A stretch of 64,000 nt of DNA from Burkholderia sp. USMB20. GTDB lineage: Bacteria; Pseudomonadota; Gammaproteobacteria; Burkholderiales; Burkholderiaceae. The translations under genes were made by a program, and so were the position numbers. The stretch lies in contig NZ_JTAN02000006.1 of the NCBI RefSeq assembly GCF_000949135.2, positions 1 to 64,000 of the forward strand, given 5' to 3'. Positions 1-13,088 of the stretch are shown piece after piece. Numbering within the stretch: the first letter of the stretch is position 1; each line of letters begins with the position of its first letter. The notes beneath the pieces were generated by a model. It was not told the DNA's origin. It did not search any database and saw only the letters and a list, made by a program, of their open reading frames with translations.

Positions 1-646
1 CCAGCTCGATCAGCTCGCTGTCCACGTCGACCTCGACGGGTATCAGCTCGCTGTCGACCGGCCTCAGCTCGACCGATAGCTCGGTCGCTTCGCTGTCGAC
101 GTCCACGTCGACCGGCTTGTCGTCGGCAACCAGCTCGATCAGCTCGCTGTCCACGTCGACCTCGACGGGTATCAGCTCGCTGTCGACCGGCCTGAGCTCG
201 ACCGATAGCTCAGTGGCTTCGCTGTCGACCTCCACGTCGACCGGCCTGTCCTCGGCAACCAGCTCGATCAGCTCGCTGTCCACGTCGACCTCGACGGGTA
301 TCAGCTCGCTGTCGACCGGCCTCAGCTCGACCGATAGCTCGGTCGCCTCGCTGTCGACCTCCACGTCGACCGGCCTCTCGTCGGCAACCAGCTCGATCAG
401 CTCGCTCTCGACCTCGACTTCGACGGGCATCAACTCGTTGTCCACGGGCCTGAGTTCGACCGATAGCACCGTGGCATCGCTGTCGACTTCGACATCGACC
501 GGCCTCTCCTCGGCAACCAGCTCGATCAGCTCGCTGTCGACTTCGACCTCGACGGGCCTGTCGTCCGCGACCAGCTCGATCGGCTCGCTGTCCACCAGCC
601 TCAGCTCGACCAACAGCTCGCTGACGTCGTTGTCCACGTCGACCGC
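1..646 (+). repeat. 129-bp tandem repeat in the adhesin stalk
   Basis: The string ccagctcgatcagctcgctg recurs at bases 1, 130, 259, 388 and 517, an exact 129-bp (43-codon) period. The array continues off the left edge. After 517 the register breaks into shorter sub-units; the next similar start is at 571, 54 bp on. Copies differ mainly at third positions and in a few Asp/Thr/Asn swaps, so the protein repeat is better kept than the DNA. Each 43-aa unit is two related sub-units of about 18 and 25 residues. Confidence 0.93.
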
Positions 647-2585
647 AAGCAGCGTCACGTCGCTGTCCACGGGTCTGAGCTCGACCGACAGCTCGGTCGC
701 CTCGCTGTCGACTTCGACCTCGACCGGCCTCTCGTCGGCGACCAGCTCGATCAGCTCGCTGTCCACCTCGACCTCGACCGGCCTGTCGTCGGCAACCAGC
801 TCGATCAACTCGTTGTCCACGTCGACCTCGACCGGTCTCTCGACGGCCACCAGCACGATCCTGTCGCTGTCCACGTCGACCTCGACGGGTCTCTCGACGG
901 CCACCAGCTCGATCACGTCGCTGTCCACCTCGACCTCGACCGCGATCGAAGCCGCGAAGACGCACTACTACAGCGTCAACGACAACGGCACGCAGCAAGG
1001 CAACTACGCCAACGACGGCGCGACGGGCGTCAACTCGCTGGCAGCCGGCGTGAACGCCAGCGCGGCAGGCGCCAGCAGCGTGGCAGTCGGCGACGGTTCG
1101 AACGCGCAGACGGCAGGCGCGGTCGCCATCGGCCAGAACGCTTCGGCCACCGGCGGCAAGGCGGTGTCGATCGGCTCCGGCAACACCGCGAGCGGCGACG
1201 GCGCGGTCGCGATCGGCGACCCGAGCATCGCGACGGGCACCGGCGCAGTCGCGCTGGGCGCGAACGACACGGCGACCGGCACCGGCGCAGTGGCACTCGG
1301 CAACGCGAACACGGCAACCGGCAACAGCGCGCTCGCCCTCGGCAGCGCAAACCAGGCCACCGCGGACAACACGATCGCGCTCGGCAATCAGGCGACGGCC
1401 AGCGCGATCGGCGCCCAGGCCTACGGCTCGAACGCGAAGGCCACGGCAACCGACGCCCTCGCCTTCGGCACGAACGCGCAGGCCAATGTCGCCAACTCGA
1501 TCGCGATGGGCGCGAACTCGACCACGGGCAACGCCGTCGGCGTGTCGAGCGTCACGGTCGGCGGCGTCACGTACCCGGTCTACGGCACCTCGCCAGTGGG
1601 CGTCTTCAGCGTCGGCGCACCCGGTGCGGAACGCCAGATCACGAACGTCGCGGCAGGCCAGGTATCGGCCACCAGCACGGACGCGATCAACGGCAGCCAG
1701 CTCAACGCGACGAATCAGGCCGTCAACAGCCTGTCCACGTCGACCGCGTCGAACATCGCGTCGCTGTCGACCGGCATCGGTTCGCTGTCCACGGGCCTCA
1801 GCTCGACGAACAGCAATCTCACGTCGTTGTCCACGTCGACCTCGACGGCGATCAACTCGCTGTCGACGGGCCTCAGCTCGACGAACAGCAACCTCACGTC
1901 GTTGTCGACGTCGACCTCGACCGGCATCGGCTCGCTGTCGACCGGCCTGAGCACGACGAACAGCACGGTGGCTTCGCTGTCGACCGGCGTGACGAACCTC
2001 GGCGATCAGGTGAACCAGTTGTCGACCACGATCAACAACAACACGACGCGTGCGACGAACAACACCGCCATCGCGGCCGACATGAACGGCACCGGTACCG
2101 ACCGGCCGACCGTCACCGCCGGCTCGAACTCGGTGGCGATCGGCGCGAATTCGAACGACGGCGGTCGCTCGAACGTGGTGTCGGTCGGCAGCGACACGCA
2201 GCAGCGCCAGATCACGAACGTCGCGCCGGGTACGCAAGGCACCGACGCGGTGAACGTGAACCAGCTGACGCAGGTGCAGACGACGCTGTCGACCGCCTTG
2301 TCCGGCCAGCAAGGGCAGATCAACGCGCTGGGTTCGCAACTGCAGCAGACCGACCAGATGGCGAAGCAGGGTATCGCGGCCGTCGGCGCGATGGCGTCGA
2401 TCCCGCAGCTCGATCGCGACGCCAACTTCGGGATGGGTATCGGCACGTCGACCTTCCTCGGCCAGAAGGCGATGGCGGTCAACATGCAGGCGCGCATCAC
2501 GGAGAACCTGAAGGCGTCGATCAACGGCGGCTTCAGCGGCGGTCAGAAGGTGATCGGCGCCGGCATGCTGTACCAGTGGAAGTAA
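1..2585 (+). CDS. Trimeric autotransporter adhesin, 3' part (YadA/Hia type)
   Basis: The 5' end lies outside the window; the frame is open from base 3 to the stop at 2583-2585 (about 860 codons visible). Order of parts: a Ser/Thr-rich stalk of repeats (SLSTSTSTGL, SLSTGLSSTDS) to about base 945; a YadA-type head with left-handed roll repeats (AVAIGQNASA, GAVALGNANT) at about 1020-1600; a neck (RQITNVAAGQ, then DAINGSQLNA); a second short Ser-rich stalk; a second neck (RQITNVAPGT, DAVNVNQL); and a C-terminal anchor ending YQWK. Family knowledge: three chains form a 12-strand outer-membrane pore and display a fibrous adhesin. The stalk is almost all Ser, Thr, Leu and Gly, so O-glycosylation is conceivable. 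No signal peptide can be seen because the start is missing. The family call is firm; ligand and trimer length are unknown. Confidence 0.95.
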   Translation, partial: SSISSLSTSTSTGISSLSTGLSSTDSSVASLSTSTSTGLSSATSSISSLSTSTSTGISSLSTGLSSTDSSVASLSTSTSTGLSSATSSISSLSTSTSTGISSLSTGLSSTDSSVASLSTSTSTGLSSATSSISSLSTSTSTGINSLSTGLSSTDSTVASLSTSTSTGLSSATSSISSLSTSTSTGLSSATSSIGSLSTSLSSTNSSLTSLSTSTASSVTSLSTGLSSTDSSVASLSTSTSTGLSSATSSISSLSTSTSTGLSSATSSINSLSTSTSTGLSTATSTILSLSTSTSTGLSTATSSITSLSTSTSTAIEAAKTHYYSVNDNGTQQGNYANDGATGVNSLAAGVNASAAGASSVAVGDGSNAQTAGAVAIGQNASATGGKAVSIGSGNTASGDGAVAIGDPSIATGTGAVALGANDTATGTGAVALGNANTATGNSALALGSANQATADNTIALGNQATASAIGAQAYGSNAKATATDALAFGTNAQANVANSIAMGANSTTGNAVGVSSVTVGGVTYPVYGTSPVGVFSVGAPGAERQITNVAAGQVSATSTDAINGSQLNATNQAVNSLSTSTASNIASLSTGIGSLSTGLSSTNSNLTSLSTSTSTAINSLSTGLSSTNSNLTSLSTSTSTGIGSLSTGLSTTNSTVASLSTGVTNLGDQVNQLSTTINNNTTRATNNTAIAADMNGTGTDRPTVTAGSNSVAIGANSNDGGRSNVVSVGSDTQQRQITNVAPGTQGTDAVNVNQLTQVQTTLSTALSGQQGQINALGSQLQQTDQMAKQGIAAVGAMASIPQLDRDANFGMGIGTSTFLGQKAMAVNMQARITENLKASINGGFSGGQKVIGAGMLYQWK

Positions 2586-2601
2586 CCCGTCGCGCCGCCA
2601 C

Positions 2602-2625
2602 GCCGCCGGCTCGCGAGCCGGCGGC
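2602..2625 (+). terminator. Perfect 24-bp palindrome after the adhesin gene
   Basis: An 11-bp GC stem (2602-2612 with 2615-2625) with only GC between the arms begins 16 bases after the adhesin stop. It has no U-run, so it may be a processing hairpin or an mRNA 3'-end stabiliser rather than a simple terminator. Confidence 0.5.
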
Positions 2626-2651
2626 GCCAGGGGGCCCCGACGGCAGGACGA

Positions 2652-2676
2652 GCCCGCCGCGCAACGCGCGGCGGGC
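2652..2676 (+). terminator. Probable factor-independent terminator of the adhesin gene
   Basis: An 11-bp stem (2652-2662 with 2666-2676) closes on a 3-base loop and is followed by TTCA. This GC-rich 'GCCCGCCGCGC' form is common downstream of Burkholderia genes. It separates the adhesin from the lipoprotein gene at 2708. Confidence 0.6.
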
Positions 2677-2707
2677 TTCAGTCAACCCAAGTATTGAGGA
2701 CGTAACC

Positions 2708-3376
2708 GTGAACAAACTCGCTCTTGCGCTCGCGCTTTCCGCGCTGGCCCTCGCCGCGTGCTCGACCGCATCCGGCCCGACCTTCAGCGCCTCCGAACTG
2801 CAGCCGCGCGACGGCGTGCGCACCTTCCAGGTGGACTGCCACGGCCTGCTGTCGGGTCCGCAGACCTGCATGAAGGCCGCCCGCAAGATCTGCGGCGACC
2901 AGCCGGTGCGCGTCGTCGATTCCGCCCGCGCGCTGCGCGACAAATCCGATCCCGCGACGCTGGTGTTCCAGTGCGGCGCCGCGCCGGCCCAAGCTGCGTC
3001 GGCGGCCGAGCCGGCCCCCGCGCCCGCCGCGGTCGAACACGTCAACCTCGCGGGCGACGCGCTGTTCGCGACGGGCCTGGCCACGCTCACGCCGGCCGCG
3101 CGCGCGTCGCTCGACAAGCTGCTGAACGAACGCGAAGACCGCACGTACACGCAGGTGACGGTCACCGGCCATACGGATTCGGTCGGCAACGACGCCGCCA
3201 ATCTCGCGCTGTCGAAGCGCCGCGCGGAAACCGTCGCAAGCTACCTGAAGGCACACGGACTGAAAGCGCAGGCCGTGTCGGTCACGGGCCGCGGCAGTGC
3301 CGATCCGGTCGCGTCCAACGCGACGGACGAAGGCCGCGCGAGCAACCGCCGCGTCGAGATCTCGCTGCAGCGCTGA
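2708..3376 (+). CDS. OmpA-family outer-membrane lipoprotein
   Basis: The 222-residue product starts at GTG 2708, preceded by TGAGGAC. Residues 1-17 are a hydrophobic signal ending in a lipobox, with Cys18 (LAAC-S) as the lipidated residue. Ser at +2 fits outer-membrane sorting. The C-terminal half is an OmpA/MotB peptidoglycan-binding domain, with TGHTDSVGND, the LSKRRAETV helix, GRGSADPVA and the closing NRRVEI motif. It probably anchors the outer membrane to peptidoglycan. It sits directly after the adhesin gene but behind a hairpin, so it probably has its own promoter. I infer it may support the envelope where the adhesin is inserted; a general envelope role is equally possible. Confidence 0.9.
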   Translation: MNKLALALALSALALAACSTASGPTFSASELQPRDGVRTFQVDCHGLLSGPQTCMKAARKICGDQPVRVVDSARALRDKSDPATLVFQCGAAPAQAASAAEPAPAPAAVEHVNLAGDALFATGLATLTPAARASLDKLLNEREDRTYTQVTVTGHTDSVGNDAANLALSKRRAETVASYLKAHGLKAQAVSVTGRGSADPVASNATDEGRASNRRVEISLQR

Positions 3377-3775
3377 GCAGCCGGCCGTCGCGGCCCCGGC
3401 GCACCCCGCGCCCGCACGCGACGGCCTTGACCGGCAACGCGCAGCCGCCCCGCCGGCCACCCCGCCCGACCGCACCGACCCCGCTTCGCCGGGGCCCCGG
3501 CTCCCGCGCGGGCGGCTATGTCAAAGTTCGTCAGGCCCCCTCCACAAGACGGCGCCTTCCGTGCCACAATCGCCGCAGACAGCTGCCGAGGCGTTCCGCC
3601 CGCGTCGCGCGCCGTGACCCGCCCGACGACACACCGGAATCCGGCGGCCGCCCCGCGATCCGCGCCGCTCGACTCATATTCCGGCGCGCGCCGGCGCGAA
3701 CACAACCACGACAATCCACGGCGCGCCGTTTCGCGGCCACGGCCGAACGCACGACGCCGCAGAGGAAACCAACCG
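3377..3775. other. 399-bp intergenic region upstream of the DUF2827 operon
   Basis: No convincing gene is visible. Rightward reading is open through part of it (from about 3518), but the composition is Arg/Pro-rich, as expected from unselected GC-rich DNA. The promoter of the DUF2827 run presumably lies here; I cannot point to firm -35/-10 boxes. Confidence 0.5.
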
Positions 3776-4921
3776 GTGACGGACATCAATCAAGCCGCCT
3801 CGGGCGGCACCCGCAAGCAACGGCCGGCCGTCGGCATCTCGCTGTTTGCGCGGGACGGCCAGGCGATCTGGGAAAACGGCATTCACCAGAACATCGCGTT
3901 CCTCGCGATGATGCTCAAGCGCTCCGATCGCGTCGGCCCCGTCTATTTCCTGAACGGCGGCGACGCCAACGCGTTTCCGGCCGGGCTCGATCTCGACGGC
4001 CTCGACGTGCCGCTCGTGAAGCCTTCCGACGTCACGCACGACCTCGACGTCGTGATCGAGATGGGCGCGCAATTGCCGCTCGAATGGCGCAGGCACATGA
4101 AGGCGCTCGGCAAGAAACTCGTCGCCTTCTTCTGCGGACACGTCTACGCCGGCCTGGGTGAAACACCGATCTTCGGCAAGCCGTCGGGGCACATCTTCAA
4201 CGACACGCCGTTCGACGAAGTATGGCTGCTGCCGCAGTACGAGAAGACCGGCGCACCGATGCTGCAAACCCTGTTGCGCGCGCCGGTGCACCTGATGCCG
4301 CATATCTGGTCGCCGTACTTCCTCGATCGCCGCATCGCCGCGCTGGCGAGCGAAGGCCTGACGTTCGGCTATCGGCCCGGCCGTCGCCCGTGGAATCTCG
4401 CCACGCTCGAGCCGAACATCTCGGTCGTGAAGTCCTGCCACTACCCGATGCTCGCGTGCGACGAGCTCTACCGCGCACATCCGGACGCCGTGCAGCATCT
4501 GTTCGTCGTCAACTCGATGCACATGAAGGCCCATCCGACCTTCTTGCACTTCGCGAACAGCCTCGACCTCGTGCGCCAGCACAAGGCGACGTTCGAGCCG
4601 CGCATCGACCTGCCGGGCTTCATGGCGCGCCACGCGGACGCCGTCGTGTCCCATCACTGGGAAAACGCGCAGAACTATCTGTACTACGACGTGCTGTACG
4701 GCGGTTATCCGCTGATCCACAACTCGACGCTGATCGGCGACGCCGGCTACTACTACCCGGACTTCGATTCCGCCGCGGGCGGCCGCGTGCTGCTCGATGC
4801 CTGGCTGCATCACGACGAGCAGCTCGACGACTACCGCGCGAAAGCCGACCGGCTGCTGCGGTCGGTCTCGATCGACAACCCCGCGAACCTCGACGCGTTC
4901 GTCTCGCGTCTGGTCGCCTGA
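3776..4921 (+). CDS. DUF2827 family protein 1 (putative glycosyltransferase-like)
   Basis: The 381-residue product starts at GTG 3776, with GAGGAAA nine bases upstream. A longer in-frame extension to 3518 is Arg/Pro-rich and unlikely. No signal peptide or membrane helix is seen, so it is probably cytoplasmic. Landmarks shared with three other proteins here are IWENGIHQN near the start, DVVIEMGAQL, LMPHIWSPYF, LEPNISVVKS, and HHWENAQNYLYYDVLYG followed by YPLIHNS at about residues 291-317. The last block resembles the C-terminal donor-binding region of GT-B glycosyltransferases, but that link is my inference; the family is officially of unknown function. It begins a run of closely spaced genes that ends at 9745. 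Confidence 0.85.
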   Translation: MTDINQAASGGTRKQRPAVGISLFARDGQAIWENGIHQNIAFLAMMLKRSDRVGPVYFLNGGDANAFPAGLDLDGLDVPLVKPSDVTHDLDVVIEMGAQLPLEWRRHMKALGKKLVAFFCGHVYAGLGETPIFGKPSGHIFNDTPFDEVWLLPQYEKTGAPMLQTLLRAPVHLMPHIWSPYFLDRRIAALASEGLTFGYRPGRRPWNLATLEPNISVVKSCHYPMLACDELYRAHPDAVQHLFVVNSMHMKAHPTFLHFANSLDLVRQHKATFEPRIDLPGFMARHADAVVSHHWENAQNYLYYDVLYGGYPLIHNSTLIGDAGYYYPDFDSAAGGRVLLDAWLHHDEQLDDYRAKADRLLRSVSIDNPANLDAFVSRLVA

Positions 4922-4935
4922 ACCGGAGAATACGC

Positions 4936-6090
4936 ATGTCGGACTCCAATGCCCGTCAAGCGCCCGGCGAGGGCAAGCGTCTCGTCGTCGGCGTGTCGCT
5001 GTTCGTGCGCGGCGCCGGCCAGTCGCTGTGGGAAAACGGCATCTTCCAGAACTGCCTGCTGCTGATCCTGCTGCTGCGCCAGTCGCCGCTCGTCGCTGAA
5101 GCCGTGATGGTGAACGGCGGCGAACAGCTCGCGGATCCGCAGATGATGCTCGGCGAATGGGACGTGCCGCTGCTGTCGATGGACGAAGCGCTCGAGCGCT
5201 GCGACGTGCTGATCGAAATGAGCGCGCAGTTCGGCGCCGACTACCTGCGCGCGTTCCGCGACCGCGGCGGCAAGATCGTCACGATGCGGGTCGGCAACGA
5301 CTACGTGATCGACATCGAACGCGCGATGTTCGACAAGCCGTCGGGCTTCCTGTTCTCGGGCGCGCCGTACGACGCGGTCTGGACGATTCCGGAATTCGAG
5401 CGCTCGTGCCTGCACTATTACCAGACGGGCCTGCGTGCGCCGGTGACGATCGTCCCGCACATCTGGCATCCGATGCTGTTCGACAAGGCACGCGCGACGC
5501 TCGGCGCCGGTTTGTCGTTCGGCTATCAGCCCGGCAAGCCGCGCTGGCGCGTGACGATGTTCGAGCCGAACATCTGCATGGTGAAGACGAGCATCATCCC
5601 GATGCTGGTGACCGAGGAAGCGTATCGCGCGAAGCCCGATTTCGTCGAATTCGTGCGCGTGTGCAATACGCTGCACCTGAAGGAACATACGACGTTCGTT
5701 CATTTCGCGAAGAGTCTCGACATCGTGAACCACGGGATCACGACGTTCGAAAGCCGCTACGCGGTGTACGAGTTCATGGCCGCCTACGGCGACGCGGTGG
5801 TGTCGCACACGTGGGAAAACGCGCAGAACTACCTGTACTACGAACTGCTGTACGGCGACTATCCGCTGATCCACAACTCGCCGTTCCTCGGCAAGGCCGG
5901 GTATTTCTATCCGGACTTCGACTGCCAGGCCGGCGGCCGCGCGCTGCTGCGGGCATTTGCCGAACACGACGCGAATCTCGATGCATACCGCGAGCAATCG
6001 AAGCACGTGCTCGACTCGGTCAGCATCTACAACCCCGACAACGTCGCCGCGTATTCCGACGCGATCGCGTCGCTCTATCGCGACGCTTGA
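4936..6090 (+). CDS. DUF2827 family protein 2 (putative glycosyltransferase-like)
   Basis: The 384-residue product starts at ATG 4936, 14 bases after the preceding stop, with GGAGAA upstream. It is clearly paralogous to the 3776 gene: LWENGIFQN, DVLIEMSAQFGADYLRAF, IVPHIWHPMLF, FEPNICMVKTS, SHTWENAQNYLYYELLYG and YPLIHNSPFLG. It differs in the N-terminal third, which would fit different acceptor or donor substrates if these are transferases. No secretion signal is visible. It is probably co-transcribed with its neighbours. Confidence 0.85.
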   Translation: MSDSNARQAPGEGKRLVVGVSLFVRGAGQSLWENGIFQNCLLLILLLRQSPLVAEAVMVNGGEQLADPQMMLGEWDVPLLSMDEALERCDVLIEMSAQFGADYLRAFRDRGGKIVTMRVGNDYVIDIERAMFDKPSGFLFSGAPYDAVWTIPEFERSCLHYYQTGLRAPVTIVPHIWHPMLFDKARATLGAGLSFGYQPGKPRWRVTMFEPNICMVKTSIIPMLVTEEAYRAKPDFVEFVRVCNTLHLKEHTTFVHFAKSLDIVNHGITTFESRYAVYEFMAAYGDAVVSHTWENAQNYLYYELLYGDYPLIHNSPFLGKAGYFYPDFDCQAGGRALLRAFAEHDANLDAYREQSKHVLDSVSIYNPDNVAAYSDAIASLYRDA

Positions 6091-6115
6091 CGCGCCACCT
6101 TCTCCGGACTCCGAC

Positions 6116-6583
6116 ATGAACGCACACCCGCCTCTCTCCCGCACGAAATGGCTGATCGGCTGCGCCGTCGCCTCGATCGCGATCGGCGCACACGCGCAAT
6201 CCGGCGACGAATCGGCGGACGCGCTGCTGCGCGATGCAGATGCAGTCTTCAAACAGCTCGACGCCGGTCAGTACGGCGCGGTGTGGACCGGCTCCGCCGG
6301 GTTCGTGAAGGCGCGCATCAAGCAGGACCAGTTCGCGGCGGACATGCAGCGCGCGCGCCAGTCGGTCGGCATGGTCAGCCATCGCGGCTGGGCGCAGATC
6401 ACGCGGATTCGCTACACGAATTCATCGTCGATGCCCGACGGGCTTTATGCGAATGTCGACTATGCGACGACGCTCACGACCGGGACGACCGTATACGAAA
6501 AGCTGAGCTTTCGCCTCGACGACGACGGCCTCTGGCACCTGACCGGCTACGTGCCGCGCCAGTCGCAGAACTACACGCCTTGA
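6116..6583 (+). CDS. Small exported DUF4019 protein
   Basis: The 155-residue product starts at ATG 6116. The N-terminus has Lys/Arg followed by a hydrophobic stretch (LIGCAVASIAIGAHA) and a likely AHA|Q signal-peptidase I site, so the mature protein should be periplasmic. The rest matches the DUF4019 pattern: an LDAGQYGAVW opening, a middle with RIKQDQFAADM, and a strand-rich end closing with WHLTGYVPR. Function is unknown. It lies between DUF2827 genes 2 and 3, with gaps of 25 and 28 bases. An exported protein inside an otherwise cytoplasmic operon suggests the operon serves an envelope process. Confidence 0.82.
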   Translation: MNAHPPLSRTKWLIGCAVASIAIGAHAQSGDESADALLRDADAVFKQLDAGQYGAVWTGSAGFVKARIKQDQFAADMQRARQSVGMVSHRGWAQITRIRYTNSSSMPDGLYANVDYATTLTTGTTVYEKLSFRLDDDGLWHLTGYVPRQSQNYTP

Positions 6584-6611
6584 ACCGCGCACCGTCCGCC
6601 CGGAGCCGCCG

Positions 6612-7748
6612 ATGAAAATCAATGTCGCGATTACGATGAACGTGCAGCGCGACGCGACGCAGTCGATCTGGTACAACGGCGCGAACCAGCATTGCGTGTA
6701 CCTGTACATGCTGCTGAAACGCTCGCCGCTGATCGGCGAAGTGTGGCTCGCGCACGACGACGGCATCACCGACTACCCGCAGGCGCTGATGATGGACGCG
6801 TTCGGCGACGCGCTGCGGCCGTTGTCGGCGATCGTCCACCAGACCGACCTGCTGATCGAGATGAACGCGTTCGTCGACCCGTCGCACACGGACGCGGTGC
6901 GCCGGCGCGGCGGCAAGTGCGTGTCGTACCGCTTCGGCAACGACTACGTGATCGCGGTCGAGACGATCAACTTCGAGAAGAACAACTGGCGGCCGAACCC
7001 GAACCGCGTGCAGTTCGACGAGATCTGGACCAACCCGCAGCACATGCACACGTGCGCGGCCTACTTCCAGGCCGTATATCGCGCGCCGGTGATCGAGCTG
7101 CCGCACATCTGGTCGCCGTACTTCATCGAACGCAGCCTCGACGCCGACCCCGAGCTGAAGGCGCGCTTCGGCTACCGCAACCACGGTCCGGCCAAGCGCA
7201 TCGCGTTCTTCGAGCCGAACCTGAACGTCGTGAAGAGTTCGATCGTGCCGATGCTGGCCGCGAACGCGTGCTATGTCGAGCATCCGGAGCTCGTCGAACA
7301 CGTGTACATGACCAACACGTTCGACAAGAAGGAAAACGTCGCCTTCAAGCATCTCGCGCTCGGGCTCGAGATGGTGCGCGACGGCAAGGCGACGGCCGAC
7401 GTGCGCGCGCCGTTCGTCGCGTGGGCCGCGCATCACACCGACATCGTCGTGTCGCACCATTGGGAAAACGGCCTGAACTACCTGCTGTACGACGCGCTGT
7501 ACGGCAACTATCCGCTCGTGCACAACTCGCCGTTCCTGCGCGACGTCGGCTATTACTACCCGGACTTCGAGATCTTCGACGCGGCACGCGCGATCGCGAC
7601 CGCCGCGCAGACGCACGACGCGCGGCTCGACGACTACGCGGCAGCGGCCCGCCGCTGCCTGCAGCAGGTCGACACGCTCGCCGACCACAACGTCCGCGCG
7701 TATTCCGGGCAGATCCAGCGCCTGTTCGCCGGGCGCGCGCTCGGCTGA
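6612..7748 (+). CDS. DUF2827 family protein 3 (putative glycosyltransferase-like)
   Basis: The 378-residue product starts at ATG 6612, with CCGGAG upstream. It carries the family landmarks: IWYNGANQHCVYL, DLLIEMNAFVD, ELPHIWSPYF, FEPNLNVVKSS, SHHWENGLNYLLYDALYG, YPLVHNSPFL and VGYYYPDFE. The first landmark reads IWYNG where copies 1 and 2 have WENG. The N-terminus MKINVAITMNVQRDA looks like the first strand of a Rossmann fold. No signal or membrane helix is visible. Only 23 bases separate it from the FkbM/glycosyltransferase gene, so the two are very likely in one transcript. Confidence 0.85.
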   Translation: MKINVAITMNVQRDATQSIWYNGANQHCVYLYMLLKRSPLIGEVWLAHDDGITDYPQALMMDAFGDALRPLSAIVHQTDLLIEMNAFVDPSHTDAVRRRGGKCVSYRFGNDYVIAVETINFEKNNWRPNPNRVQFDEIWTNPQHMHTCAAYFQAVYRAPVIELPHIWSPYFIERSLDADPELKARFGYRNHGPAKRIAFFEPNLNVVKSSIVPMLAANACYVEHPELVEHVYMTNTFDKKENVAFKHLALGLEMVRDGKATADVRAPFVAWAAHHTDIVVSHHWENGLNYLLYDALYGNYPLVHNSPFLRDVGYYYPDFEIFDAARAIATAAQTHDARLDDYAAAARRCLQQVDTLADHNVRAYSGQIQRLFAGRALG

Positions 7749-7771
7749 CCGCGCCCGTTCGCCCTCCGTTC

Positions 7772-9745
7772 ATGAAGCACACCGTCCGCCACTTCGTCGT
7801 GATCGATTCGATCCACGGCCCGTTCGTCATCGACCGGCACAGCACGCGGCAGGCCGACGCGCTGCTCGAGACCGGCCGGCCGCACAACCAGGGCGAGCTC
7901 GACACGATCATGCAGGTGATCGACCAGTTGCCCGACGGCGCGCTCGCGGTGGACGGCGGGGCCAATGCGGGACTCGTCTGCGTGCCGATCGCGCAGCGCT
8001 TGCGCGATCGCGGCGGCCACGTCCATGCGTTCGAGCCGCGGCGCACGCTGTTCCATGCGCTCGGCGGCACCGTCGCGCTCAACCAGCTCGACAACCTTCA
8101 TCTGCTGAACATGGGGCTCGCGAGCCGCAACGGCACGATGACGGTGCCCGACGCAGACGGCGGGCACCCCGCCGGCGCCGAACCGGCCGCACGCGTCGAC
8201 GCGCACGCGGCCGACGGCACGCCCGCCCCGACCGTCAGGCTCGATTCGCTCGGCCTGCCGCGCCTCGATTTCCTGAAGCTCGACATCGACGGGATGGAGA
8301 TCGACGCGCTGCACGGCGCGCGCCTGCTGATCGAAACGCATCTGCCGTGGTGCTGGATCGCCTGCCGGAACGCGGATGACGCACGCGTCATCGATACGTT
8401 CGCCGGCCTCGATTACACGTTCTACCGGTTCGACGGGCCGAATCTGTTGTGCGTGCCGAACCCGCGCTGGGACCGGCAACGCCTGTTCATCTCGGGCGAG
8501 CCCGTCGGCCGCGTATCCGCCCGCGCAAACGATGACGCGAATGCCGCCGTGTCAGCCGAGACCGACGACGCGCCCGAAACGCACTGGAACCGCGCGCTCG
8601 ACCACGAATCCCGCTGCGAATGGGGCCACGCGATCGCCCGCTGGCTGTGCGCGCGCGGCCGGGGCCTCGACGACGATGCGATCGCGTTCCAGCTCGCGTC
8701 GTGCTACGGCTTCGCCGGCGCGCCCGATGCCGGGCTCGCGGCACTCGAACGCATCGGCGAACCGGCCGCGCTGCCCGACGCGCTGCGCGGGCGCGTCGAA
8801 CTCGCGCGCTCGGCGCTGCTGCTGCGTGCCGGCCGACGCGACGAAGCCGCGCGCGCGACCATCGCCAGCGAGAACGTGCTCACGGCCGCACGGTTCGGGC
8901 TGCCGACGGAACGGCTCTACGACGGCCAGCCGCTGCACGGCAAGCGGCTGCTCGTGATCAGCTACGGCGGGGTCGGCGACCAGCTCCAGTACGCGCGCTA
9001 CCTGCATGCGCTCGACGCGCTCGACGGCGTGGCGGTGACGGTCATCGTCCCCGCCGCGCTGGCCGACCTGATGCGCCATACGTTCCCGCGCATCGAAGTC
9101 GTCGCCGCACACGGCGCGTGGGTCGACACGTCGCAGATCGCTCACGACTACTGGTGTTCGTTCCTGGTGCTGGCCGCGCAGTTCGGCTACGCGCCGGCAC
9201 CGGCCGGTGCGCCGGCCGCCTACCTGTCGTGCCCGCCCGAACGGGCGGCGGCATGGCGCGAACGCGTCGCGCGCGATGGCAGCGCACCGGGCACGCGCCG
9301 CATCGGCCTCAACTGGCGCGGCCGCGACGAAAGCGATGCGCGCTTCCTGCGCGCGGCCAGCCTGCGCGACCTCGCGCCGCTCGCGCGGCTGCGCGGCCAT
9401 GCCGCGTACTGCATCAACCGCGACATCGCCGCGCAGTCCGAGCCGTCGGATCTGCCGGTCACGTTCCCGCATCACGCGATCGGCGATTTCAGCGATCTGG
9501 CCGCACTGATGCTCGCGATGGACGCCGTGGTCACCACCTGCACCGCGCACATCCACCTGGCCGGCGCGCTAGGTGTGCCGGCCGTCCTGCTGCTGAGCCC
9601 GAAAGCCGATGCACGCTGGGAAACCGGCTCGCGTACCGCGCTGTACCCGGGCATCCGGATCGTGCGCGCCGCGCATCCGGGCCGCTGGGACGATGCGGTC
9701 GACCGCGCGCTGGCGCTCGTCCTGGGTGGCTTCGGGAAGGACTGA
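7772..9745 (+). CDS. Fusion of FkbM-type methyltransferase, TPR-like helices and GT9-like glycosyltransferase
   Basis: The 657-residue product starts at ATG 7772. Residues 1 to about 240 are an FkbM-type SAM methyltransferase: AVDGGANAGL (SAM motif I), HAFEPRRTLF, and LDFLKLDIDGMEIDAL, the FkbM hallmark. Residues about 270-385 are Ala-rich helices of TPR character (WGHAIARWLCARG, ASCYGFAGAPDAGLAAL). Residues about 395-650 resemble the TPR-linked, GT9/heptosyltransferase-like domain: LLVISYGGVGDQLQYARYL, RIGLNWRGRDES, GDFSDLAALMLAMDAVVTT, and AHIHLAGALGVPAVLLL. Such fusions may add and then methylate a sugar on a protein or polysaccharide. Substrate unknown. It is the last gene of the rightward run, and the neighbouring Ser/Thr-rich adhesin is an obvious candidate acceptor, by inference only. 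Confidence 0.83.
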   Translation: MKHTVRHFVVIDSIHGPFVIDRHSTRQADALLETGRPHNQGELDTIMQVIDQLPDGALAVDGGANAGLVCVPIAQRLRDRGGHVHAFEPRRTLFHALGGTVALNQLDNLHLLNMGLASRNGTMTVPDADGGHPAGAEPAARVDAHAADGTPAPTVRLDSLGLPRLDFLKLDIDGMEIDALHGARLLIETHLPWCWIACRNADDARVIDTFAGLDYTFYRFDGPNLLCVPNPRWDRQRLFISGEPVGRVSARANDDANAAVSAETDDAPETHWNRALDHESRCEWGHAIARWLCARGRGLDDDAIAFQLASCYGFAGAPDAGLAALERIGEPAALPDALRGRVELARSALLLRAGRRDEAARATIASENVLTAARFGLPTERLYDGQPLHGKRLLVISYGGVGDQLQYARYLHALDALDGVAVTVIVPAALADLMRHTFPRIEVVAAHGAWVDTSQIAHDYWCSFLVLAAQFGYAPAPAGAPAAYLSCPPERAAAWRERVARDGSAPGTRRIGLNWRGRDESDARFLRAASLRDLAPLARLRGHAAYCINRDIAAQSEPSDLPVTFPHHAIGDFSDLAALMLAMDAVVTTCTAHIHLAGALGVPAVLLLSPKADARWETGSRTALYPGIRIVRAAHPGRWDDAVDRALALVLGGFGKD

Positions 9746-9831
9746 CGAGCGACCTTGCCGCGCGACGCAAGCGGTAGTACTCCTGAGGAGCGTGACGAGA
9801 ACCTGACGAGGACGTGATGCACGAACCGGCG

Positions 9832-10260
9832 TCAAGCCGGCACGCGCTGCCCGCGTCGCTCGGCGAACGCACGGCCATGCCGCCGGCCGATGCGCGCAAG
9901 CCTCGCGAAACAACGTGCCGCCGCGGGGCCGACATCGCCGGCCTGTTGCGCCAGGCTGCCCGATACGCCGCACGCGATCGCCGAATCGTCGCCGCAAGCG
10001 CCCGCGAACACACCGGCGAAATAGTGTCGCGCCGCGCGCTCGCGACCGTCGGCATCGAGCGGTTTCATCCGGTGAATGTGTTGCGAGACGTTCTTCAGGC
10101 CGTGGAGAAACGGCATGACGTCGACCGGTGAAGCGGTCGCGTCAATCGCATCGGCGCCGAGTTGCTCCAGCATCTCGGCCAGTTCGGCGATCGCGACGAG
10201 CTCGCGCGCATCGGCCGCCTGCGTGCCCGTTCCGTGCCCGGCCTTCTTCGTCGCCGCCAT
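9832..10260 (-). CDS. Small hypothetical protein downstream of the EAL gene
   Basis: The 142-residue frame starts at ATG 10260. The first two thirds have natural composition (ELVAIAELAEMLEQLGADAI, VDVMPFLHGLKNVSQHIHRM); the tail is Arg/Ala-rich. It lies 62 bases downstream of the EAL-domain gene on the same strand and is probably co-transcribed with it. I recognise no domain. The segment with MLEQLGADAI and HGLKNVSQHI could be a short helical adaptor. The upstream sequence has only a weak AGGGG ribosome site. Moderate confidence that this is a gene. Confidence 0.55.
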   Translation of the reverse strand: MAATKKAGHGTGTQAADARELVAIAELAEMLEQLGADAIDATASPVDVMPFLHGLKNVSQHIHRMKPLDADGRERAARHYFAGVFAGACGDDSAIACGVSGSLAQQAGDVGPAAARCFARLARIGRRHGRAFAERRGQRVPA

Positions 10261-10322
10261 GCCCACGCCCCTATTCAATTCTTCGTTGTCCGATGCCGGC
10301 GCGCCACGCCCGCGCCGCGGCG

Positions 10323-11126
10323 TCATGCGGCGGCCGGTGACCGCCATGTAAAGCGGATGCCCTGCGCCCATGAGACGCCGGAATCCAGGATGATCTGCCG
10401 GTCGATCTCGTTCTCCACGCCTTCGACGACGACGTGCCGCGCGCTTTCGTGCGCGAACGCGATCAGCCGGCGAAACTGGTAGCGCCCGATCGCGTTGCGC
10501 TTGATCAGCGACAGGACCGACCTGTCGAGCTTCACGATGTCGGGGTTGCCGACCACCAGGTTGTTCAGCGCGCTGAAGCCGACGCCGAAATCGTCGATCG
10601 CGACGCGGCACCCGGCCTGGCGAAACCGGTTCACGAACGACCGGCCCGCGACGGGGTTCAGCGGCCCCGTCTCGGTGATTTCGACGACCAGCCGCGCCGC
10701 GACCGACGGCTCGCGCTCGAGCCGCCTGAACAGGGCGAGCCACGCGTCGTCCACGACCGCGCTCGTCGCCGTGACGTTGCAGCCGTACACGGCCTTCGGA
10801 TCGGCGCGCAGCGCGTCGATCGTCCGGCCCACCACGAGCCGGTCGAACCAGCGCATCAGCCCGAGCGATTCGAGGCGCGGCAGGAACGCGAGCGGCGGCA
10901 AGACATCGCGCGCGCCCCAGCGCAGCCGCGCGAGGCATTCGTGATACAGCACGCCGCCCGACAAATCGGCGCGGCAAACCGGCTCTCGCGCGAATCCGAG
11001 CCGGCTTTCGACGAAACTGCGTACCGACGCAAGGTCGGGGTGATCGTCAGGCGCGCCGAATACGAGATCGATCTCGTCCCGATTCGCTACGCTGTTCGCC
11101 TCCAGGCGAGGTTCGACCGCATTCAT
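10323..11126 (-). CDS. EAL-domain protein (c-di-GMP phosphodiesterase type)
   Basis: The 267-residue product starts at ATG 11126, with GGAG upstream; a longer start at 11210 is Arg-rich and less likely. It is almost entirely one EAL domain without visible sensor or membrane segment. The signature EAL is ECL (YHECLARLRW), keeping the catalytic Glu. Other landmarks are largely present: EITETGPL, DDFGVGFSAL, IVKLDRS, VVEGVEN and AQGIRF. The normal A-E-G-V-E is V-E-G-V-E. The N-binding motif reads GCNVTATS. Most metal ligands appear kept, so activity is possible, though an effector-only role cannot be excluded. Its position between surface genes fits c-di-GMP control of adhesion or sugar production (inference). 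Confidence 0.85.
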   Translation of the reverse strand: MNAVEPRLEANSVANRDEIDLVFGAPDDHPDLASVRSFVESRLGFAREPVCRADLSGGVLYHECLARLRWGARDVLPPLAFLPRLESLGLMRWFDRLVVGRTIDALRADPKAVYGCNVTATSAVVDDAWLALFRRLEREPSVAARLVVEITETGPLNPVAGRSFVNRFRQAGCRVAIDDFGVGFSALNNLVVGNPDIVKLDRSVLSLIKRNAIGRYQFRRLIAFAHESARHVVVEGVENEIDRQIILDSGVSWAQGIRFTWRSPAAA

Positions 11127-11729
11127 CCGGCGCTCCGGCAATTGTCGGACCGCCGATGACGGCCCGCGCTCTCGATACATGTGGCGCGAGCCGACCACGA
11201 CGCGCACCACCGCCTACCCGGCCCAACCTCTTTTTCGATCTTTTTCGGGAGCGTACTTTTTATTCCGGCGTGCCGTCAAATCAGATATTGTCAATGATAT
11301 TCAAACACCGAAAATACACCACACGCGCACGTCGACAACAGTGCGACAGGTTACACAAAAACGTCGGCGATACTCCGATCGATACTGGTTATTTGCCCCA
11401 CCCGAACATCTTCGGGTGAATCGATTTATCGCAAGACCCGTTTCAAAAATCGGATGTTTGAAATATCATATGACAAATGCGCGCCAGCGAAACGCTACCC
11501 GGACCCGACGGCCGGATTCCTCGCAGCCGCTGGCAAACCGTGCAGCCATTGCGTTGCGACGACGCATTCGGTCTCCACAGAATTCAATTTTGCCGTTTCA
11601 AACGATATTGAAAATATTTGAATGATAATCCGGCTGACTTGAACTACAATAATTAAGTCAAATTATACGGCAACCATCGATCGAAAGATATTTAACAATC
11701 TTTCCGACTAGTTAACCTATAAAATTATT

Positions 11730-11758
11730 TTTGACGGACTTCCCTCGGAGCCGTCAAA
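11730..11758 (+). ncRNA. Hairpin, possible small RNA body
   Basis: TTTGACGG (11730-11737) pairs exactly with CCGTCAAA (11751-11758) across a 13-base loop. It lies 13 bases before a U-tailed terminator hairpin and behind AT-rich promoter-like DNA. No rightward gene ends or begins nearby, so a short untranslated RNA ending at about 11810 is plausible. This is a structural guess only. Confidence 0.3.
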
Positions 11759-11771
11759 TTCGTGCCTTCAA

Positions 11772-11809
11772 AAACCGTCGAATCTCCCCGGTTCGGCGGT
11801 TTCTTTTTT
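11772..11809. terminator. Factor-independent terminator, possibly bidirectional
   Basis: AAACCGTCGAA (11772-11782) pairs with TTCGGCGGTTT (11792-11802) with one wobble, and is followed by CTTTTTTA. An A-run on the left arm gives a U-tail when read leftward, so it can also end the DUF2827 gene whose stop is at 11946. Confidence 0.7.
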
Positions 11810-11945
11810 AACGGCTCATTTCTTCAGACATTAACCCGGGACAATCCGGTTGACGGCAGGCGGCGAAATCGAGCCGACCGCCTCGATCGCGCAAATCGCG
11901 ATCGAATGCGCCCGCAGGCAGCGGCGCGTGCCGCGTCGTGCAGCC

Positions 11946-13088
11946 TTATGCCGCCGTCGCGCCGATCAGGTTCGCGAGCAGCGCGTCGTAGTCGGCGACG
12001 AGCGCGGGGTTCGCCGACGTATAGCGGCGCAGGATCTCGCGCTGCCGCCGCGCATACCCTTGCCAGTCGTCGTCGTGCGTATGCAGCACGTGCAGCAGCG
12101 CCTCGGTGCCCTTCTGCACGTCGTTGCCAGGATAGTAGTAGCCGAGGTCCGGCACGAGGCTCGCGTTGTGCACGAGCGGATAACCCTGCCAGCACACGTC
12201 GAAATAGAAATAGTTGAGCGGGTTCGCCCATTGATGCGACACGACGATGTCGGTCATGTCGGCCAGGAACAACGGCGTGTCGAAACGCCCGACGAAGCTC
12301 GCCTTGCCCGCGCGCACGATGTCCAGGTAGTTCATCAGCGTCACGAACTCGGGGCTGTTGTGCGCGAGGCGATCGGCGTTCGTCACGTGCGTGAAGCAGA
12401 TCGCGTCGGGATCGCGGCGATACGCCTCGTCGATGATCAGCATCGGATACATGCAGAACTTCACGACGTTGTGGTTCGGCTCCATCACCGTCAGCCGCTT
12501 GCCCGGTTCGGTGCGCGGCCGGTATTCGCCACGCTCCGGCAGCGATTGCGCACGCGCCTCCAGACACATCGGGTCCCACACGAACGGCACGACGCGCCCC
12601 GGGCAACGGCGCAGCGACTGCAGGAACGGCAGCGACGACTCCGCGATCTGCGGAATGGCCCACAATTCGTCGTAGCCGCGGTTGATGAACAGCGAATCCC
12701 ACATGCGGCGGCCGAACAGTATCGATTCCATCGAGGTGATGTATTCGAAGCCGCAGCAGTAGCTGACGATCTTCGCGCCGCGCGCCTTCAGGTAGGCCGT
12801 CTGCTCGCCGTCGATCTGACCGCCCAGCTCGATCACCACGTCGAGCGCATCCTTCATGTCGGCGAACGCGCGCGTGTCGTATACGCGGCGATCCCAAGGC
12901 AGCGCGTCGGTAAGCGCCACGTCGGTCGTGTTGACCAGCGTCACGCGATACCCATGCGGCGACGCCATCAACAACTTCGCGAGAAACAACGCGTTCTGCT
13001 TGATGCCGTTGATCCACAGGCTTTCGTCGGGGGCGCGCAGGCCGATCGTGATACCGATGCGCAGGCCGTTCAGGGCAGGAGACTTCAT
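11946..13088 (-). CDS. DUF2827 family protein 4, opposite strand
   Basis: The 380-residue product starts at ATG 13088. It is a more distant paralogue of the three rightward DUF2827 proteins: LWINGIKQNALFL, DVVIELGGQIDG, VMEPNHNVVKFC, SHQWANPLNYFYFDVCW, GYPLVHNASLV and LGYYYPGND. The block HHWENAQNY of copies 1 and 2 becomes HQWANPLNY here, so the Glu is Ala. No secretion signal is seen. It is monocistronic, ending before a terminator at about 11772-11809. Family membership is firm and function unknown; the Glu-to-Ala change may mean altered or lost catalysis if that Glu is catalytic. Confidence 0.82.
   Translation of the reverse strand: MKSPALNGLRIGITIGLRAPDESLWINGIKQNALFLAKLLMASPHGYRVTLVNTTDVALTDALPWDRRVYDTRAFADMKDALDVVIELGGQIDGEQTAYLKARGAKIVSYCCGFEYITSMESILFGRRMWDSLFINRGYDELWAIPQIAESSLPFLQSLRRCPGRVVPFVWDPMCLEARAQSLPERGEYRPRTEPGKRLTVMEPNHNVVKFCMYPMLIIDEAYRRDPDAICFTHVTNADRLAHNSPEFVTLMNYLDIVRAGKASFVGRFDTPLFLADMTDIVVSHQWANPLNYFYFDVCWQGYPLVHNASLVPDLGYYYPGNDVQKGTEALLHVLHTHDDDWQGYARRQREILRRYTSANPALVADYDALLANLIGATAA

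Follow-up and report, generated by a model that had tools for sequence, protein, structure and literature searches.

Predicted DUF2827 glycosyltransferases encoded with Ser/Thr-rich trimeric autotransporter adhesins in Burkholderiaceae and other bacteria

Glycosylation of type V secreted proteins has been ascribed to two mechanisms, those of the HMW1C-like and the BAHT enzymes, both of which act in the cytoplasm before export, according to a 2021 review (PMC8151025). Here, a locus is described from a 64,000-nucleotide stretch of Burkholderia sp. USMB20 (contig NZ_JTAN02000006.1, positions 1 to 64,000; this whole stretch is called the window), in which four proteins of the family DUF2827 (PF10933) are encoded in positions 1 to 13088 together with a serine- and threonine (Ser/Thr)-rich trimeric autotransporter adhesin (TAA). 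Based on the predicted fold of DUF2827, its recurrent linkage to TAA genes and the composition of the linked adhesins, we consider that DUF2827 probably forms a cytoplasmic system that O-glycosylates Ser/Thr-rich TAA stalks in sequential steps.

The BAHT enzymes (TibC, AAH, BimC) are a close described counterpart, as dedicated enzymes that place sugars on Ser/Thr of an autotransporter in the cytoplasm (PMC8151025, PMC11499645), and in Burkholderia the BAHT enzyme BimC is encoded next to the trimeric autotransporter BimA (PMC11499645). In that system, however, a single enzyme transfers heptose and carries iron-binding cysteines (PMC11499645), whereas DUF2827 has no match to TIGR04414, has a GT4-like predicted fold and is encoded in two to five paralogous copies at most loci. 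A fusion protein is the sole product of the locus that resembles TibC, and it does so by fold, its TIGR04414 score being 14.1 bits against a cut-off of 200. HMW1C-like enzymes (GT41) also modify type V adhesins in the cytoplasm, TAAs included, whether or not enzyme and adhesin are linked (PMC8151025); unlike the system proposed for DUF2827, they put single hexoses on Asn in NX(S/T). No match to HMW1C_N or Glyco_transf_41 of Pfam was found in any of the ten window proteins scanned. The preliminary description of this DNA had named both kinds of enzyme as precedents; judged by sequence, DUF2827 appears to belong to neither the TibC/AAH type nor the GT41-like family. In the Gram-positive Gtf system, several glycosyltransferases are encoded with the adhesin, GtfA starts the O-glycosylation of Ser-rich adhesins and GtfB is its non-catalytic partner. 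There, too, a Ser-rich adhesin is glycosylated intracellularly before export (PMC7948813), and the PDB matches of DUF2827 include GtfA. The adhesin here, in contrast, is a Gram-negative type Vc autotransporter with a YadA outer-membrane anchor, whereas the Gtf system uses the accessory Sec route; no relationship was found in Pfam, and all DUF2827 classes keep their conserved residues. No accessory Sec gene was seen among the ten window proteins or the further neighbours scanned, in which no directed search was made. The PglL system likewise places O-glycans on serine of exported proteins in the same genus, but its trisaccharide comes from a five-gene cluster and is attached to periplasmic proteins (PMC12152626), the glycan is transferred en bloc from lipid (PMC12645811), and the genes are different. 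No description of DUF2827 as a glycosyltransferase was found in the literature searched, which excluded preprints and most subscription papers; in the same literature the name occurred solely in a cysteine database paper.

The adhesin and the four DUF2827 genes, the core of the locus, are arranged as follows (ten window proteins were scanned with Pfam and NCBIfam profiles; D1 to D4 are the DUF2827 copies, with classes taken from a tree described below):

3..2585, plus strand: YadA-like TAA, C-terminal 860 residues; the frame is open at the left edge, with the N-terminus upstream of the window
1..556, plus strand: 129-bp tandem repeat array encoding a SLSTSTSTG-type stalk, with further arrays up to 943
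3776..4921, plus strand: DUF2827 D1, class 1, predicted GT-B glycosyltransferase (PF10933, 4.4e-160; tree)
4936..6090, plus strand: DUF2827 D2, class 2, predicted GT-B glycosyltransferase (PF10933, 2.7e-157), the modelled copy
6612..7748, plus strand: DUF2827 D3, class X, divergent fourth glycosyltransferase-like paralogue (PF10933, 1.3e-109; separate tree branch)
11946..13088, minus strand: DUF2827 D4, class 3, predicted GT-B glycosyltransferase, inverted here (PF10933, 1.7e-145; tree)

The window adhesin matched the profiles YadA_stalk (PF05662, 1.6e-18), YadA_head (PF05658, 9.5e-16) and YadA_anchor (PF03895, 4e-15), and these domains identify it as a membrane-anchored trimeric autotransporter of type Vc. 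The first 300 residues of the piece contain 135 Ser and 67 Thr, and its gene carries 129-bp and 54-bp tandem repeats. Because Leu, Ile and Val in the stalk are mostly spaced by 3, 4, 7 or 8 residues, with autocorrelation peaks at 18, 25 and 43 residues, the stalk is likely to be a coiled coil with Ser/Thr on its outer faces. A relative at locus L035 is encoded in a single open frame, 2744 codons long, close to whose start an ESPR marker lies. SLSTS repeats are likewise reported for BpaC of B. mallei and B. pseudomallei (PMC4021183), and a term search of that paper returned no mention of an operon, glycosylation or OmpA. The association of a TAA gene with a downstream lipoprotein/OmpA-family gene is already known from BCAM0219-0220 (PMC3404963) and bpaE (PMC4382181), in passages that do not mention DUF2827.

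The four window DUF2827 proteins scored 367-533 bits against PF10933 (gathering score 25), each over about 360 of its 362 positions; this was their sole Pfam match, NCBIfam gave none, and no signal peptide was seen by eye in any copy. The profile found one match among PDB sequences, a TnpArep protein with an E-value of 0.2, so that DUF2827 fell into no named glycosyltransferase family by sequence in Pfam, NCBIfam or the PDB-sequence profile search. The relationship emerged from structure prediction. An AlphaFold2 model of D2, computed with 78 relatives, reached a pLDDT of 92.4 and a pTM of 0.90, and a Foldseek search of the PDB with this model returned 148 matches at E-values up to 0.001. Glycosyltransferases lead the best 50 of these 148, with MshA (1.2e-9), a methylmannose polysaccharide mannosyltransferase (1.5e-9) and BshA (2.2e-9), and GtfA, the pneumococcal O-GlcNAc transferase (4pqg), is also among the matches (2.6e-8). 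We take the leading matches to be GT-B enzymes, mostly of the GT4 type. From this class 2 model, DUF2827 is predicted with high confidence to have a GT-B glycosyltransferase fold that is GT4-like, and the GT-B similarity that the preliminary description had proposed to look for was thereby borne out. Since the median identity between the DUF2827 classes is 33-42%, the same fold is expected for classes 1, 3 and X. In all of 116 representatives, the same seven polar residues are present (E210, N212, K217, H291, N298, H313 and N314 in class 2 numbering); they may be catalytic, and because of their invariance no DUF2827 class looks dead.

PF10933 was present in 86/299 Burkholderiaceae genomes. A set of 107 loci was assembled among the matches listed, namely 100 regions from 79 of the 86 positive genomes, six plasmid-collection records and the window; the positive genomes outside the set are G022, G023, G043, G064, G228 and G273, mostly with fragments or weak matches, and G033. 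The YadA anchor and the ESPR signal peptide, each detected with a purpose-built profile, served as TAA markers, with a linkage limit of 5 kb. By these measures, 87/107 DUF2827 loci had a TAA marker within 5 kb: 44/45 in Burkholderia (g1, the window included), 14/16 in genus g20, 15/23 in g10, 4/4 in g25, 2/2 in g24, 1/1 in g13, 1/1 in g3, 1/3 in g11, 0/4 in g21, 0/2 in g19 and 5/6 in the plasmid collection. Since DUF2827-positive genomes carry 1 to 13 TAA anchors, a random place would lie this near to one in an estimated few per cent of cases at most. A TAA anchor was found in 83/86 genomes with DUF2827 compared with 100/213 without it (Fisher 3e-18). Two of the anchor-less exceptions, G118 and G162, have class X only and yielded no anchor on a second search either; in the third, G022, the listed DUF2827 matches are fragments. 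Chance is ruled out for the window proteins by their E-values, and for the TAA-DUF2827 linkage by its recurrence.

The family at first seemed confined to Burkholderiaceae, with 0/273 positives among other genomes of the class; this view was overturned by a wider genome draw (6/398 positive, three of the six outside Burkholderiaceae) and by a contig search. Among the best 80 of 311 relatives used from the latter, 26 lie outside Burkholderiaceae, metagenome-assembled genomes (MAGs) without a genus counted in, and at 19 of these 26 a TAA marker was found in the 6-kb flank. The positives comprise Variovorax (5), Polaromonas (4), Ramlibacter (2), Snodgrassella (2), Glaciimonas, Xenophilus, Comamonas, Frateuria and two MAGs; for genera other than Variovorax, Polaromonas, Snodgrassella and Glaciimonas, the family placement is presumed. 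In 15/18 readable loci the DUF2827 match starts 59-137 bp after the TAA frame, and in the other three the two are 473-792 bp apart. Apart from Collimonas, considered below, the loci without a marker were a Verrucomicrobia MAG and two contigs of about 4 kb. The MAG encodes an RTX-repeat protein, then a DUF2827 pair, then a GT2-FkbM fusion, an arrangement that would suit a different secreted repeat protein as client. Together with the Burkholderiaceae counts, these data upheld the conserved linkage to adhesins that the preliminary description had named as a point to check.

If the DUF2827 enzymes decorate Ser/Thr of the adhesin, a high content of these residues is expected in the linked adhesins. 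For this comparison, a TAA was called linked when its frame lay inside the fetched DUF2827 region, with no distance limit; two TAA frames with passengers below 150 residues were excluded. The 40 control TAAs, all from DUF2827-positive genomes, were chosen among the E-value-ranked anchors listed, with frames of at least 800 codons. The median Ser+Thr content of the passenger was 47% in linked TAAs (n = 72), 20.6% in unlinked ones (n = 40) and 21.7% in TAAs of DUF2827-negative genomes (n = 20). At a cut of 30%, set after the distribution was seen, 66/72, 10/40 and 0/20 were Ser/Thr-rich, respectively. When the positions of all 40 controls were compared with those of DUF2827, three lay within 5 kb and all three were Ser/Thr-rich: L146 (0.3 kb), L149 (less than 0.1 kb) and L172 (20 kb from the anchor, but 3.8 kb from the opposite end of the gene). 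Three further controls with DUF2827 at 6 to 13 kb (L167, L177 and, with a broken fragment, L180) were Ser/Thr-poor. After L146 and L149 had been moved to the linked group and L172 dropped, 68/74 linked and 7/57 unlinked TAAs reached 30%. The linked mean exceeded the unlinked mean in 31/31 genomes having both, and with the limit of at least 800 codons applied on both sides the medians were 49% (62 linked) and 20% (37 unlinked). Charged residues were lower in linked TAAs (Lys+Arg 0.8 vs 4.0%, Asp+Glu 2.3 vs 7.3%). Because linked adhesins are enriched in Ser/Thr and their Asn is not raised, the data point to Ser/Thr rather than Asn as the acceptor. Outside Burkholderiaceae, where linked adhesins alone were measured, 13/17 readable TAAs reached 30%; this count leaves out Xenophilus L285, which has masked runs, and L272, whose frame is too short. 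The preliminary description had proposed that the DUF2827 proteins and the fusion build or attach a methylated sugar on the adhesin. The part that makes DUF2827 the glycosyltransferases of a Ser/Thr-rich adhesin gained support from the fold, from linkage across genera and families and from this enrichment, and methylation is retained below as a conditional step.

A tree of 116 DUF2827 representatives (quick method, SH-aLRT support) separated classes 1, 2 and 3, represented by D1, D2 and D4, and a divergent class X, represented by D3, in agreement with operon position; three sequences of genus g19 were left unplaced. The split into classes 1, 2 and 3 appears to be old. Among the 107 loci, class 1 occurs in 100, class 2 in 97, class 3 in 80 and class X in 38, and 76 have all three of classes 1 to 3. 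Classes 1 and 2 occur together in 96 loci, in each of which class 1 directly precedes class 2. Class 3 directly follows them in most genera having all three; it stands first in genus g24 and is inverted at the locus end in Burkholderia. The nearest plasmid-collection relatives of D3 belong to Burkholderia cenocepacia, B. arboris, B. multivorans and B. stagnalis (89-95% identity). TAA and DUF2827 sets are also present on plasmids of B. glumae and B. ambifaria (L036, L037, L038 and L040), of which three were typed as conjugative and one as mobilizable. The B. ambifaria plasmid set L037 clusters with the g20 and g25 sets, not with those of Burkholderia chromosomes, in all three classes, which suggests that the DUF2827 set has been transferred as a unit. 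Some of the plasmid sets lie near H-NS, type VI secretion or insertion-sequence genes.

The remaining features of the window locus are listed below.

2708..3376, plus strand: OmpA-type lipoprotein (PF00691, 1.7e-23; lipobox by eye), probably a partner anchored to peptidoglycan
6116..6583, plus strand: DUF4019 protein, exported, accessory (PF13211, 1.6e-23; signal-peptide-like N-terminus by eye)
7772..9745, plus strand: fusion of an FkbM methyltransferase (5.8e-13), TPR-like helices and a GT9-heptosyltransferase-like GT-B domain (glycosyltransferase part by fold)
9832..10260, minus strand: small conserved protein next to the EAL gene, with relatives at other loci
10323..11126, minus strand: EAL protein, probable c-di-GMP phosphodiesterase, possible locus regulator (PF00563, 7.4e-40)

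All the genes that the preliminary description had listed in positions 1-13088 were recovered there. The genes from D1 to the fusion (3776 to 9745) are separated by gaps of 14-28 bp and, because of this spacing, probably form one operon. Among the 107 loci, matches to the OmpA lipoprotein were found in 57, to EAL in 44, to DUF4019 in 36, to GT9-like TPR proteins in 33 and to FkbM-type proteins in 22, the last all in Burkholderia or its plasmid-collection records. Since each is present in only part of the loci, these accessories are optional, and the core is DUF2827 plus TAA. The small open reading frame at 9832-10260 has relatives in 37/107 loci, the window included, and no Pfam or NCBIfam match. 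The GT9 part of the fusion is below the cut-off by sequence (PF01075 0.029, TIGR04414 0.017). By fold, this part resembles GT9 heptosyltransferases, TPR-containing O-GlcNAc transferases and TibC; it alone was used from the fusion model, in which it mostly had a pLDDT of 75-93 by block and the N-terminal 265 residues were mostly below 50. The window fusion reads KLDIDG and WIACRN where six other full fusions aligned read KLDIEG and W(I/V)EYW; because these two otherwise conserved positions differ, its methyltransferase domain may be decaying. The region between EAL and D4 (11210-11945) is AT-richer, G+C being 54% in 11001-12000, and contains, on the plus strand, three sites resembling promoters and one resembling a terminator (13 pairs), each of them a consensus match only. 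Open reading frames read by eye as leucine-degradation genes start at about 13.3 kb.

Three further neighbourhoods were recorded among the other loci. In genus g21, L048 (5619-10383) and L268 combine a DUF2827 triplet with a GT34-like galactosyltransferase gene, with methyltransferase-like genes at L048 and no TAA marker nearby. At L061 (9342-10475, genome G118), a lone class X gene lies beside SPI-1-type type III secretion genes (PrgH, YscJ, OrgA, secretin). At L063 (15993-17855, genus g10), a DUF2827 triplet stands between an ESPR marker on one side and, about 4 kb away on the other, an HMW1C/GT41-like N-glycosyltransferase gene; perhaps two adhesin-glycosylation systems stand close together here.

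In the mechanism that we infer, from the enzymatic activity, its cytoplasmic site, the acceptor, the glycan and its O-linkage to the order of steps and the accessory roles, classes 1 and 2, usually with class 3, would act in sequence or as a complex. Their substrate in the cytoplasm would be the passenger while it is nascent or unfolded, and they would place short O-glycans on the outward-facing Ser/Thr of the coiled-coil stalk. Class X and the FkbM/TPR/GT9-like fusion, where present, may extend or methylate the glycan. The glycosylated adhesin would then be exported via the Sec and BAM machinery. The OmpA lipoprotein and the DUF4019 protein could assist in the envelope, and expression may be coupled to c-di-GMP by the EAL protein. 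Underlying this proposal are computed results, namely the fold, the class order, the linkage and the Ser/Thr enrichment.

A number of observations weigh against it. The TM-scores of the D2 model, normalized to the query, are moderate (0.44-0.65) and the identities low (10-15%) over the best 50 of the 148 Foldseek matches. No TAA marker lies within 5 kb at 20/107 loci (two of which, L039 and L056, are the same record); the unlinked loci include seven in genus g10 that consist of a class 1-2 pair and four in g21 with GT34-like and methyltransferase-like genes (one locus scanned), and 10 of the 87 TAA-positive loci depend on the ESPR marker alone. The 107 loci are a selection, since 34 of these genomes hold at least 13 further DUF2827 sets; of 13 such sets, six (in G084, G119, G163, G200, G241 and G269) have a listed TAA anchor within about 1 kb. 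Outside Burkholderiaceae, the marker is missing at all four Collimonas loci. As for composition, 6/74 linked TAAs are below 30% Ser/Thr and 7/57 unlinked ones are Ser/Thr-rich, and 4/17 readable TAAs outside the family fall below the cut, two of them pieces of about 300 residues. Finally, many of the rows compared are orthologous, and a tree-based test yielded two supported independent pairs, too few to decide.

Some of these exceptions would fit a different role, in which DUF2827 makes a glycolipid or polysaccharide of the cell surface and shares no more than a surface island with the adhesin gene. The TAA-less sets of g21 stand among other glycan genes (GT34-like, methyltransferase-like), and the Collimonas sets adjoin a penicillin-binding protein gene and pilM. 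A polysaccharide, however, would not require the adhesin to be Ser/Thr-rich, yet this richness tracks linkage; the DUF2827 match starts less than 140 bp from the adhesin frame in 15/18 readable loci outside Burkholderiaceae; and the RTX-repeat protein beside the Verrucomicrobia pair looks like a secreted client. Nor was any Wzx/Wzy-type gene found among 50 proteins scanned, a small sample that contained one ABC-transporter ATPase (L056). On balance we regard this role as unlikely.

The orthology of the rows could also mean that Ser/Thr richness is a lineage trait of adhesins with slippage-prone repeats, with DUF2827 linkage co-inherited and non-causal. Most linked Burkholderia rows are indeed orthologous, and the independent-pair test is underpowered. 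Against this, rich stalks occur on differing anchors (C-termini LYQWK, SYQW, GYSW, GWKWK and SWKWR) in Burkholderia, g20, Variovorax and Polaromonas, and the anchor tree, which is poorly resolved (17/104 branches starred), implies at least 8 changes of linkage and 13 of Ser/Thr richness; we think this explanation quite improbable. Least of all do we expect that the general PglL system glycosylates the stalk in the periplasm and DUF2827 does something else: Burkholderia PglL favours serine and targets conserved proteins genus-wide, but its substrates are described as disordered, Ala- and Pro-rich regions (PMC8423747), the main text of that paper does not contain YadA, adhesin or trimeric in a term search, and none of the 20 TAAs sampled from Burkholderiaceae genomes without DUF2827 is Ser/Thr-rich.

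With O-glycosylation of Ser/Thr-rich stalks thus preferred, a broader view may be put forward, on which we remain evenly divided. DUF2827 would be a third dedicated glycosyltransferase class for type V adhesins, an ordered multi-enzyme line that coats Ser/Thr-rich TAA stalks with oligosaccharides before export. It would be distributed across Betaproteobacteria, Frateuria and possibly other phyla, and carried on plasmids. As a Gram-negative counterpart of serine-rich repeat adhesin glycosylation, it would serve a near-uncharged stalk that depends on its sugar coat for solubility and stiffness. If true, a third mechanism would stand beside the HMW1C-like and BAHT mechanisms, and a widespread uncharacterised family would gain a function hypothesis. 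Where a bacterium has several trimeric adhesins, DUF2827 linkage would also suggest which ones are glycoproteins. The question of why some stalks consist largely of Ser/Thr would become testable, in environmental and bee-gut bacteria as well, and new O-glycosylation enzymes may be a yield.

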